64,000 nucleotides of DNA from Fibrobacter sp. UWR4 (GTDB lineage: Bacteria > Fibrobacterota > Fibrobacteria > Fibrobacterales > Fibrobacteraceae): positions 1-64,000 of the forward strand of contig NZ_QGDU01000014.1 of the NCBI RefSeq assembly GCF_003149045.1, read 5' to 3'. Below the pieces are notes generated by a model, which did no database searches, was not told where the DNA came from, and was given only the letters and a program-made list of their open reading frames with translations. Every line of letters begins with the position of its first letter. The stretch's first letter is position 1. Below are positions 2,767 through 10,202 of the stretch, piece by piece. Made by a program: the position numbers and the translations under genes.

Positions 2767-3607
2767 TTATTTAACAACGATATTCACCAGCTTACCCGGC
2801 ACGGCAATAACCTTAACCACGGTCTTGCCGTTGGTAAACTCTTGAACTCGTTCGTTAGCCATGGCGAGGGCTTCCAAGGCAGCCTTGTCCATGTCCTTGG
2901 CGACATTTGCCTTGGCGCGGAGCTTGCCGTTCACCTGGAACACGACTTCGACGGTGTTTTCCACAGCCTTGCTTGCGTCGGCTTCAGGCCATGCCACGTT
3001 GGTGAGGGATCCGACCTGACCCAGGATGCTCCACATTTCTTCGGCGATGTGGGGTGCAAAGGGCTGCAGGAGCTTTACGAAGGTTTCGCAAGGTTCGCGG
3101 TAGCGCTTGTCCATCTTCATCATTTCGTTGTTGAAGATCATCAGCTGGCTGATAGCGGTGTTGAAGCTCATGTTTTCAATGTCGCTTGTGACCTTGATGA
3201 TGGACTGGTGCATAATCTTCTGGATTTCTTCCGGAGCGGCTTCGTCAACGAAGACGGGAGCTGCATCGTCGTCGCCTACCACAGAACGCCATGCACGGCC
3301 CAGGAAGCGGTTCATACCTTCGATGCCCTTGGTCTGCCAAGGCTTCACGGCATCCAGAGGACCCATGAACATTTCGTACAAACGAAGGCTGTCTGCGCCG
3401 TAGTCGCGAACCACGTCGTCCGGGTTCACAACGTTCTTCAGGGACTTACTCATCTTGGCAACAATCTGCTTCAGTTCGATGTCGGTACCCTTCTTGAAGA
3501 CTGGCGCAAGCGCCATCTGCTTCGGCTCGACCATGTCCGTGAACAAGTTCCCGGCCGCGGCACTCGCCTTAGGCAGCTGTGCCGTTCTTTTCTTCCACTT
3601 CGTCGGT
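2767..3607 (-). pseudogene. leuS: Truncated duplicate of the leuS 3' end
   Basis: This segment repeats the C-terminal part of leucyl-tRNA synthetase found intact at 7515-10202, in the same orientation. It includes the KMSKS loop, the anticodon-binding domain and the C-terminal tail. By eye the two copies differ at roughly 30-odd of about 735 aligned bases, mostly near the 3' end, so they are about 95% identical. Homology ends abruptly at 3607, and a foreign 79-nt block (3501-3579) shifts the frame, so the 306-aa open frame is an artefact upstream of the KMSKS region. It lacks the HIGH motif and editing domain and cannot be a functional synthetase. Confidence 0.9.
3501..3579. other. 79-nt foreign block inside the leuS remnant
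   Basis: Compared with intact leuS, bases 3501-3579 replace three bases. Exact leuS homology resumes for 28 nt (3580-3607) on the far side. The block begins with the perfect hairpin TGGCGC-AA-GCGCCA (3502-3515). Read on the + strand it contains a lipoprotein-signal-like stretch, MSVNKFPAAALALGSC. Its origin is unknown. Confidence 0.75.
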
Positions 3608-6347: not shown

Positions 6348-6376
6348 TTGACTAAATACCTAAAATTAGGTATATT
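6348..6376 (+). promoter_or_regulatory. Strong promoter of the DUF3800-linked RNA, with a dyad in the spacer
   Basis: TTGACT (6348-6353), exactly 17 nt, then TATATT (6371-6376) is close to the sigma-70 consensus. The spacer holds the 14-bp palindrome ACCTAAAATTAGGT (6358-6371), which touches the -10 box and is a plausible repressor site. No open reading frame of useful size follows, so the product should be an RNA. Confidence 0.75.
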
Positions 6377-6382
6377 CGTCGT

Positions 6383-6463
6383 AGAGTCCTTGGTTGGTGA
6401 AAGTCGGCTCCATGCCGTGCGTTTCTTTGGAAACCTAGCCGCTGATGGGACTCCAATTTTTTT
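6383..6463 (+). ncRNA. Structured small RNA convergent with the DUF3800 gene
   Basis: The predicted ~80-nt transcript is closed by a 7-bp stem (6384-6390 with 6447-6453) followed by CAA and seven T, so the closing stem doubles as a terminator. Inside are a GUUUC/GAAAC hairpin (6421-6425 with 6430-6434) and two competing partners for CGGC(U) 6405-6409: GCCG at 6414-6417 or AGCCG at 6437-6441, which could form a pseudoknot or a switch. Its 3' half is antisense to the last codons of the DUF3800 gene. I recall published candidate structured RNAs called DUF3800 motifs lying next to such genes. Whether this is one of them needs an Rfam covariance search. Confidence 0.6.
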
Positions 6464-7229
6464 GCTCTAACGGTTTCTTCTCCGTATAGAAGGTCCCATA
6501 AAACTGGTTCGATTGCACGTCAAAGATGTCATGGACCAGTTTTATTTTTTCCCTGATAAAATTAAAATAACGGAAATCATTTTTCTCGTATACTCTGAAT
6601 ACGGTCCAAAGTACGTAGTCTATAACCTGGAGCAATGGCAAATGAGAAGGCTGCTGTAGAAATACACGGATTTTTCCGTTATTTTCCTTTCCCCATTTTT
6701 GCTGAAATTTGGCGATAGCATCGTTCAAGGCTTCAGTCATGTTATTAACGCTAACGACGTTACCCATTTCCGAAAAATAGATATCAATTTCACTGTAAAG
6801 GTGCAAACGATTTTTCAATAGTTCCGCAACAAGAAACTTGTACAGTTTTTTGTCGCTCATGTTAAATTTGCGACGAAAAACAGATTCATTTTTACGAGCA
6901 ACAATGATGTACGCTTCAAAGTCCGATTTTTTCAGCAGTTTAAAAACTTTCTCCTTGACTTCGGCACAATCCTTGTTAGCATGAAATCCATTCTTTAGAT
7001 TCCGCATTGAGGGAACCGCTTGGAGATATTCGTCTTCCATCAATTCCTTGCGTAATTTTTCCAAGTCAACAAGCAACTGATGTGGGTTAGATATTTCCAC
7101 ATAGCCAACAGAAAACGTTTTACTTACGGAGCCTTCTTGCAAGAGATTCTTGCCATGATGCCCAAGAATTCTAGGATCACCAGACTCGTCAAAGTAATAG
7201 TACATTTTCTGTGGTAACGCTTCTTTCAC
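6435..7229 (-). CDS. DUF3800 domain protein
   Basis: The 264-aa product has the DUF3800 hallmark YYYFDESGDP near the N-terminus (D14-E15-S16-G17) and the C-terminal Q-x3-D-x3-W pattern (PLLQVIDYVLWTVFR). DUF3800 proteins are often found in phage and mobile islands, and an RNase H-like nuclease role has been suggested. The biochemical function is not settled. The GTG start is preferred over the internal ATG at 7205 because AGGGG lies 5 nt before it. The 3' end overlaps an oppositely transcribed structured RNA, and its own promoter is visible upstream. It sits in the segment bracketed by the leuS duplication. Confidence 0.85.
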   Translation of the reverse strand: MKEALPQKMYYYFDESGDPRILGHHGKNLLQEGSVSKTFSVGYVEISNPHQLLVDLEKLRKELMEDEYLQAVPSMRNLKNGFHANKDCAEVKEKVFKLLKKSDFEAYIIVARKNESVFRRKFNMSDKKLYKFLVAELLKNRLHLYSEIDIYFSEMGNVVSVNNMTEALNDAIAKFQQKWGKENNGKIRVFLQQPSHLPLLQVIDYVLWTVFRVYEKNDFRYFNFIREKIKLVHDIFDVQSNQFYGTFYTEKKPLEQKNWSPISG

Positions 7230-7514: not shown

Positions 7515-10202
7515 TTACTTCACCACGATATTCACCAGCTTACCCGGCACGGCAATGACCTTCACGACGGTCTTGCCAGCAGTAAACTCCTGAACGCGTT
7601 CGTTAGCCATGGCGAGAGCTTCCAAAGCAGCCTTGTCCATGTCCTTGGCGACATTTGCCTTGGCGCGGAGCTTGCCGTTCACCTGGAACACGACTTCAAC
7701 GGTGTTTTCCACAGCCTTGCTTGCGTCAGCTTCAGGCCATGCCACGTTGGTGAGGGATCCTTCGTGACCGAGAATGCTCCACATTTCTTCGGCGATGTGG
7801 GGTGCGAAGGGCTGCAGGAGCTTTACGAAGGTTTCGCAAGGTTCGCGGTAGCGCTTGTCCATCTTCATCATTTCGTTGTTGAAGATCATCAGCTGGCTGA
7901 TAGCGGTATTGAAGCTCATGTTTTCAATGTCGCTTGTGACCTTGATGATGGACTGGTGCATAATCTTCTGGATTTCTTCCGGAGCGGCTTCGTCAACGAA
8001 GACGGGAGCTGCATCGTCGTCACCCACCACAGAACGCCATGCGCGGCCCAGGAAGCGGTTCATGCCTTCGATGCCCTTGGTCTGCCAAGGCTTCACGGCA
8101 TCCAGAGGACCCATGAACATTTCGTACAAACGAAGGCTGTCTGCACCGTAGTCGCGAACCACGTCGTCCGGGTTCACAACGTTCTTCAGGGACTTACTCA
8201 TCTTGGCAACGATCTGCTTCAGTTCGATGTCGGTACCCTTCTTGAAGAACTTGCCGTTCTTTTCTTCCACTTCGTCGGTGGGAACCTTGGAGCCGGCTGC
8301 GTCTTCGTAAGCGAAGGCAAGAATCATGCCCTGGTTAAAGAGCTTCTGGAAGGGTTCGTCGGTAGAGACGAGGCCCAGGTCGAAGAGGACCTTGTGCCAG
8401 AAACGGCTGTACAGCAAGTGGAGCACAGCGTGTTCTGCACCGCCCACATAAAGGTCGACAGGCATCCAGTACTTTTCGAGTTCCTTGGCCAGGAATGCGT
8501 CGCCGTTGCAGGCGTCGATATAGCGGAGGTAGTACCAGCAGGAACCAGCCCACTGCGGCATGGTGTTGGTTTCGCGAACACCCTTACGGCCGTTAGCGTC
8601 AACCACGTTCAGCCATTCAGTTGCGTTGGCCAGCGGAGACTGACCGCCGTCACCCGGCTTGTAGTCCTGCAAGTCCGGCAGCTGCACGGGGAGTTCTGCA
8701 TCGTCGACGGTAGAGATTTCGCCATCTTCCCAGTGGATAATCGGGAACGGTTCGCCCCAGTAACGCTGACGGCTGAAGAGCCAGTCACGGAGCTTGTAGT
8801 TCACGGTAGCCTTACCGATCTTGTTGGCTTCCAGCCATTCGATCACCTTAGCCTTGCCAGCTTCCTTGTTGAGGCCGTTGAGGCAGAGGGTGTCATTCTG
8901 GCTGTTGATGTAGGTGCCGTCGGCAGCCCAGCATGCTTCGCCAGCGAGAACCTGGGGCTTCACGTCTTCCGGGCAGGATGCGTCCGGTTCCATGATGCAG
9001 ATAACAGGCAGGTTGAACTTCTTTGCAAATTCGAAGTCACGAGTGTCGTGGGCGGGCACTGCCATAATAGCGCCGGTGCCGTAGCCAGTCAAAACGTAGT
9101 CAGCCACCCAAACCGGAATCTTGGTGCCGGTCAGCGGGTTGATGGCGTAGGAGCCAGAGAACACGCCGGTCTTTTCCTTGGCCAGTTCGGTACGGTCCAG
9201 GTCGCTCTTGAGGGCGGCGGCGTGAACGTAGGCTTCCACAGCTTCCTTCTGTTCCGGAGTAGTGAGGGTCGGAACCAGCTTGTGTTCAGGAGCCACCACC
9301 ATGTAGGTTGCGCCAAACAGGGTATCGCAACGGGTGGTATAGACGCGGAGCTTGTTTTCGGTGGGCTTGCCGTTTGCATCAGCGATTGCGAAATCCACTT
9401 CTGCACCCTGGCTCTTGCCGATCCAGTTCTTCTGCATGTCCTTCACACCCTGGGGCCAGTCAAGCTTATCGAGGCCCTTCAGCAAGCGGTCGCCATAATG
9501 CGGAATGCGCATGAGCCACTGCTTCAGGTTACGGCGTTCCACTTCCTTGGTGCCGCACTTTTCGTGAGAACCGTCGTTCAAAACTTCTTCGTTAGCGCAA
9601 ACAATCTTGCAGTGCTTGCACCACCAGACCTGAGCGTCGGCATAGTAAGCGAGACGCTTGGAGTCCTTGAACTTGCGAACTTCTGCTGCACCCTGAGCCT
9701 GAACGTCGGCGGGAATGGGCAGTTCTTCAATGGGGCGGCCCTTCTGCTGTTCATCATCGAACCAGGTGCCGTAAAGGCGCTTGAAGATCCACTGGGTCCA
9801 CTTGTAATACTTCGGGTCGGTGGTGTTCACTTCCTTTTCCCAGTCGTAGGAGAGGCCAAGGCGCTGGATCTGACGGCGGAAATTATCGCAGTTCTTCTTG
9901 GTGGTGATTGCCGGATGGGTACCGGTCTGAATAGCGTACTGTTCTGCAGGCAGACCGAAGGCGTCCCAACCCATGGGGTGCAAAACGTTAAAGCCCTTGC
10001 TGCGCTTGTAGCGGCAAATGATATCCGTTGCGGTGTAACCTTCGGGGTGACCAACGTGAAGGCCCGCGCCACTGGGATACGGGAACATGTCCAGGCAGTA
10101 GAACTTGGGCTTGGACTGATCGGTGCCAGTCTTGAAGGTCTGATGTTCAGCCCAGTAAGCCTGCCACTTGGTTTCAATTTCTTGCGGATTATACTTTGCC
10201 AT
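7515..10202 (-). CDS. leuS: Leucyl-tRNA synthetase
   Basis: This 895-aa class I synthetase charges tRNA-Leu in the cytoplasm. The HIGH-type motif appears in [20 protein letters not shown], the KMSKS loop in [12 protein letters not shown]. The CP1 editing domain lies between them ([14 protein letters not shown] and [15 protein letters not shown]), and the bacterial C-terminal domain ends the protein. Start: the ATG at 10202 ([10 protein letters not shown]...) has AGAGGT about 9 nt upstream. The open frame extends 12 codons further without support. It is the only complete leuS here. Its last ~840 bp are repeated, degenerate, at 2767-3607. Confidence 0.97.

Follow-up and report, generated by a model that had tools for sequence, protein, structure and literature searches.

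A conserved small RNA convergent with DUF3800 genes and its possible role as an RNA antitoxin

What does a small RNA with a promoter of its own do at the 3' end of a DUF3800 gene that is transcribed towards it? This question is raised by a locus of Fibrobacter sp. UWR4, which we analysed within a stretch of 64,000 nucleotides (contig NZ_QGDU01000014.1, positions 1 to 64,000 of the forward strand; hereafter the window). We found that the RNA is a conserved, covarying and promoter-bearing element, and that the RNA and the close members of the DUF3800 subfamily that were found are invariably linked. On balance, we lean towards reading the pair as a mobile two-part RNA-protein unit, in which a DUF3800 nuclease is restrained by a convergent RNA antitoxin. 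The parts of this unit lie in the window as follows.

6348..6376, plus strand: sigma-70-type promoter of the RNA (10 of 12 consensus positions), with -35 element TTGACT (6348-6353), a spacer of 17 nt and -10 element TATATT (6371-6376)
6384..6463, plus strand: structured small RNA of about 80 nt, a three-way junction closed by stem P1, with a 3' end of seven T; matched by covariance models (CM) R2 and R3, with covariation
6384..6389, plus strand: 5' arm of P1, GAGTCC, pairing with GGACTC at 6448-6453; 6 of 6 pairs vary on both sides across relatives
6390..6398, plus strand: 5' arm of P2 (6390-6394, bulge at 6395, 6396-6398), pairing with 6438-6445; 6 of 8 pairs vary on both sides
6399..6402, plus strand: junction strand J2/3, GAAA, after the U of P2; near-invariant in alignment A7
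6403..6420, plus strand: P3 hairpin, loop UCCAU, consensus GGC-N5-GCC, from alignment A7 and folds
6421..6434, plus strand: P4 hairpin, GUUUC-UUUG-GAAAC; 4 of 5 pairs vary on both sides
6435..6437, plus strand: junction strand J4/2, CUA, the complement of the DUF3800 stop codon TAG; near-invariant in A7
6438..6463, plus strand: 3' arms of P2 and P1, then the T-run (seven T at 6457-6463); P1 is also the terminator stem, and this part is antisense to the final DUF3800 codons
6435..7229, minus strand: DUF3800 gene with GTG start, 264 aa, motifs YFDESGD, FHANKD and LQVIDY; matches PF12686 and PADLOC models

An earlier note on this DNA, made from its letters alone, had described a promoter-driven RNA of about 80 nt convergent with the 3' end of the DUF3800 gene. 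This RNA proved to be real, and its layout is kept by relatives in Fibrobacterota and Spirochaetota and by a degraded copy on a cyanobacterial plasmid. Folded alone, the window RNA is better than shuffled sequence by a z of about -1.9, which is modest and unconvincing, so the case for the RNA rests on the comparison of its copies. The promoter is conserved among gene-linked copies: one that matches at least 9 of 12 positions stands 6-9 nt upstream of the RNA in 17 of the 19, and the same score was reached by 11 of 2000 63-mers drawn at random from the window (0.55%). The spacer of the window promoter contains a palindrome, TACCTAA-AA-TTAGGTA (7-bp arms, 2-nt centre), through which the earlier note had envisaged regulated expression. 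It is absent from the promoters of the relatives, and we rejected it as a conserved operator.

Comparison of 42 RNA copies revealed that they fit one fold, composed of P1, a bulged P2, the hairpins P3 and P4, and the junction strands GUGAAA and CUA. What the earlier note had seen as competing inner helices resolves into P2, P3 and P4 of the three-way junction. Specifically, 18 of 25 base pairs change on both sides, with the outer stems P1 and P2 contributing 12, and none of 500 shuffles reached this covariation. In the alignment, which was fitted to the model and favours the structure, 90.5% of the cells are paired versus 34-46% with the partners slid. Independent minimum-energy folds of copies L035 and L103 gave the same helices as the model. 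For L076 the minimum-energy fold agrees with the model and the centroid differs, and the own folds of phage copies L014 and L100 are less clean. Conservation across the homologous loci also extends beyond the overlapping codons, and the check on covariation came out in favour of the RNA.

The RNA and the DUF3800 gene overlap by 29 nt in the window, where the last codons of the gene traverse the 3' arms of P2 and P1; the 3' half of the RNA is antisense to these codons, as had been pointed out before. Complementarity to the mRNA 3' end over this length, in a convergent layout that is conserved, could mean that the main role of the RNA is to regulate the DUF3800 mRNA in cis as an antisense transcript or to serve as its convergent terminator, in the manner of a type I toxin-antitoxin (TA) system. 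We consider this highly improbable. The most conserved part of the RNA (P3, P4 and the 5' half) lies outside the coding overlap, P1 and P2 show the covariation of RNA helices, and the RNA is conserved in phages and without its partner gene. The gene also ends at different points. Copies of the window type have the stop codon at CUA, L034 has a TAA inside P2, and the genes of L041 and L042 already stop in the terminator, so that almost no overlap is left; the RNA core is conserved despite these differences. The position of P3, P4 and GUGAAA outside the overlap, the variable gene ends and the conservation without a gene argue against a mere antisense effect or a codon constraint.

The link between RNA and gene was evident when loci were collected through the protein. 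A protein-only scan of the genome_contigs set yielded seven loci whose DUF3800 is 68-90% identical to that of the window, in metagenome-assembled genomes labelled Fibrobacter, Treponema, Spirochaetales or Spirochaetia. The RNA is convergent at the DUF3800 3' end in all seven, with its 3' part only visible in L013, where the contig ends. The surrounding DNA differs, except in L008 (labelled Treponema), which is probably a misbinned Fibrobacter contig because its leuS fragment is 97% identical to the leuS of the window. For the two whole phyla, an alignment of 11 proteins was searched against 168 Fibrobacterota and 393 Spirochaetota genomes. The convergent RNA accompanies 8 of 8 close relatives in Fibrobacterota and 7 of 7 in Spirochaetota (partly the same loci as in the genome_contigs set), and no close relative lacking the RNA was present among those found by the protein searches.

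Distant relatives carry the RNA with varying clarity. In G353 it was recognised by CM (E=8e-8). The RNAs of G067 and G301 were recognised by eye, on the strength of their layout and motifs, which is weaker evidence; CM R3 did not recognise that of the G067 locus (L065) and gave a weak, unconvincing match in G301 (L096, partly masked). G353 (L097/L099) has in addition a tandem second DUF3800 gene, also with a convergent small folded RNA, which differs in sequence and matches no model.

RNA and protein distances are closely correlated (Mantel r=0.94, p=1e-4). Since parallel divergence is also expected from joint inheritance, this demonstrates that the two travel together, not that they bind. Taken together, the recurrence of the convergence in distant bacteria, this correlation, the strong covariation and the defence neighbours uphold the proposal of the earlier note that the RNA and DUF3800 form one unit.

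The reverse search, with the CM, detected the RNA in 20 of the 168 Fibrobacterota and 19 of the 393 Spirochaetota genomes; copies L056 and L082-L084 are borderline, at 26-34 bits. Among the Fibrobacterota carriers, the gene is adjacent in 8 (including the broken one of G123) and reduced to a C-terminal remnant in 1, and the fetched flanks of the other 11 contain no close DUF3800. The Spirochaetota carriers comprise 7 with the gene adjacent, 2 with remnants or partial genes and 10 without a close DUF3800 in the fetched flanks. Five copies adjoin a broken or partial DUF3800: the gene is interrupted by an in-frame TGA in G123, reduced to C-terminal remnants in G104 and G555 and to a fragment in G541, and degraded on the Annamia plasmid. 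Gene and RNA are thus asymmetric, in that the RNA without the gene is common and the gene without the RNA was not seen among the close members found. This is the pattern expected of a toxin and its antitoxin. Downstream DNA is conserved at three solitary RNAs (L029, L030 and L032), for which no promoter could be recognised; L030 and L032 have a PIN-like toxin gene nearby.

Copies of the RNA also occur on a plasmid and in viral contigs. On the cyanobacterial plasmid of Annamia (AP025634), the RNA faces a DUF3800 gene in convergent orientation; this gene lacks its middle part and shifts frame, and its stop codon once more complements the CUA of the RNA. Upstream of this degraded gene there is a second copy of the RNA, which has diverged further. 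The second diverged copy recorded on a cyanobacterial plasmid at L087:13784-13877 has a promoter-like sequence of its own and stands upstream of an IrrE-like metallopeptidase gene. Three unrelated viral contigs carry the RNA without DUF3800. In L014/L085 it separates a MuF-type gene from the structural gene that follows; in L100 it lies directly 3' of the major capsid gene, and in L103 immediately before a tRNA, with terminase-like genes nearby. The abutment of RNA and tRNA gene at L103:1210-1354 hints at processing from a shared transcript. The viral copies were found by a sequence pattern, which accounts for some of their CM score; for L100 and L103, that pattern included neither the P1/P2/P4 pairing nor the ACCTAG strand. 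Most viral pattern matches (L016-L025) were rejected as chance matches, with the rest of the RNA absent and a CM score of nil. Neither tblastn of the DUF3800 protein against plasmids and phages nor searches of viral_contigs with the protein or its alignment gave a match.

These copies allow a bolder, and doubtful, reading: the RNA may represent a new class of trans-acting RNA antitoxin, convergent with its DUF3800 toxin, which unrelated phages captured as a stand-alone counter-defence RNA in late gene clusters or beside tRNAs. They would also suit an independent RNA of mobile or phage origin, with a locus into which DUF3800 and other defence genes preferentially insert. Such an account fits the phage copies, the two copies that flank the degraded gene on the cyanobacterial plasmid, and the solitary copies that have Abi_2, type I restriction-modification (R-M) or another DUF3800 nearby. 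However, orientation and position are identical in every gene-linked copy, close DUF3800 relatives without the RNA were not found, and the RNA and the protein diverge in parallel, and we regard an independent RNA as very unlikely.

What the protein does bears on the role of its RNA. The DUF3800 protein of the window matches PF12686 with 37.8 bits (gathering cut-off 21; E=3.9e-9). Five residues (D14, E15, H83, D87 and D204) are invariant in 17 DUF3800 relatives, and D14, E15 and D204 are candidate catalytic acids. By published description, DUF3800 is an RNase H-fold nuclease (PMC10910872, PMC12669027), and it is associated with Cas12a2 loci (PMC10910872). This annotation and association are consistent with the RNA being an essential cofactor or guide, in which case DUF3800 and the RNA would form an active ribonucleoprotein effector, comparable to RNase H-like RNA-guided nucleases. 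The strict conservation of the junction strands GUGAAA and CUA and the obligate linkage of gene and RNA point the same way. However, the RNA has no variable guide segment, with junction and hairpins conserved throughout alignment A7, and it persists next to dead genes and as a solitary copy in many genomes and phages, which would be odd for the cofactor of a missing enzyme. We therefore judge a cofactor or guide to be unlikely.

The RNA-DUF3800 unit sits in a defence-island setting. Three neighbours were identified in the window.

105-917: TOTE-type primase gene
1194-1799: AbiEi, which forms a toxin-antitoxin pair with AbiEii
1792-2688: AbiEii

Elsewhere, L009 is accompanied by an AlwI-type endonuclease and Shedu, L012 by Abi_alpha and type I R-M, and L070 by DUF4062. 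Type I R-M also lies near L011, L006, L074 and L081 (the neighbours of L011, L012 and L006 were assigned from reading translations, not by profile), and Abi_2 genes stand beside the solitary copies L027 and L045. The 3' part of leuS is duplicated in the window (2767-3500 and 7515-8248, 96% identical over 734 bp), and the duplicates flank a segment with a lipoprotein gene, the RNA and DUF3800. Since RNA loci L007, L008 and L027 also adjoin leuS, the end of this gene looks like an insertion hot spot.

An RNA antitoxin with a nuclease toxin fits these observations best, because of the RNA-without-gene pattern, the RNAs beside broken genes, the parallel divergence and the defence setting. We infer protein-RNA binding, nuclease activity, toxicity, an antitoxin role and phage defence. 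The DUF3800 protein would be an RNase H-fold nuclease acting as a toxin or defence effector. The RNA of about 80 nt, transcribed from the opposite strand by its own promoter and folded as a three-way junction, would bind this protein and hold it inactive until the balance is disturbed by infection or stress. Solitary RNA copies might then be leftovers or protective antitoxins, and the phage copies decoys.

Several points weigh against the antitoxin reading. The convergent layout is atypical, since the antitoxin RNA of a classical type III system is encoded upstream of the toxin gene and on its strand, and the layout offers no obvious coupling of expression. Solitary RNAs could be simple remnants, and a guide or cofactor role would predict much the same pattern. 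Homology to the effector of a type VII retron is by itself no proof that DUF3800 is toxic, and the AlphaFold (AF2) model of DUF3800, built from an alignment of 8 sequences, has a predicted local distance difference test (pLDDT) of 47, too poor for judging the fold or the active site.

DUF3800 proteins are widespread, serve as retron effectors, occur beside Cas12a2 and are linked to orphan RNA motifs of no known mechanism. The unit described here offers a conserved, Rfam-unlisted RNA with defined boundaries, together with natural gene-dead, RNA-only and phage variants, so that the question of antitoxin, guide or regulator is directly testable.

Among known systems, the DUF3800-linked motifs of Rfam (RF02969 DUF3800-I, RF02915 DUF3800-VI, RF02968 DUF3800-IX, RF02975 DUF3800-XI and others) likewise place a small structured RNA beside a DUF3800 gene. 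Membership of the window RNA in these families, as the earlier note had entertained, found no support: scans at the gathering threshold and at E up to 10 matched no relevant Rfam family, the DUF3800-linked ones included. RF02969 had no match in 41 relatives nor in 14 controls, which makes it uninformative. A tRNA-like or cobalamin-riboswitch reading of GGUGAAAGUC was rejected, as Rfam gives it no support. DUF3800-XI (L033:2447-2493) and DUF3800-VI (L005:2213-2263) were each located in sister Fibrobacter genomes, upstream of another DUF3800 gene and on its strand, and DUF3800-XI in L033 has its own promoter and terminator ahead of the gene. Several DUF3800 subfamilies thus have an RNA of their own. 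The window RNA differs from both in sequence and layout, being convergent at the 3' end of its gene; an RNA of the window type is also found near the L033 motif. Weinberg and colleagues reportedly described further DUF3800 motifs and their gene layouts in 2017, so another motif with a convergent layout may already have been published.

The window protein resembles the effector of type VII retrons (PADLOC DUF3800_VII, RT-DUF3800_VII-A1), matching the DUF3800_VII model with E=2.2e-25. However, the window RNA is much smaller than an msr-msd, and no reverse transcriptase was found on the contig of the window; the RVT_1 matches of the genome lie on other contigs.

The type III system ToxIN shares with our prediction a nuclease held in check by a structured RNA, and phages can carry a mimic of its antitoxin (PMC3475682). 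It differs in its protein family and its layout. The RNA is a single unit in the window and its relatives, in contrast to the tandem repeats of ToxI-type antitoxins, and it is convergent with the gene in all gene-linked copies rather than upstream on the strand of the toxin.

The AbiF system (RF03085; RCd22) is the closest example that has been worked out: the abiF motif RNA, too, was initially catalogued only for its association with a gene, before it was found to bind and neutralise the toxin (PMC12373285). Solitary RNAs of the window type adjoin Abi_2 genes in two genomes; the abiF motif RF03085 itself had no match by cmscan in the window and 20 related loci. The toxin of AbiF is a HEPN Abi_2 protein, not DUF3800, and its RNA, which reads through, is encoded upstream of the toxin gene and on its strand. 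On the antitoxin reading, the window RNA would resemble ToxI or the AbiF RNA in its role, though encoded convergently with its toxin; if this holds true, the AbiF story would extend to a second toxin family, one with an RNase H fold.
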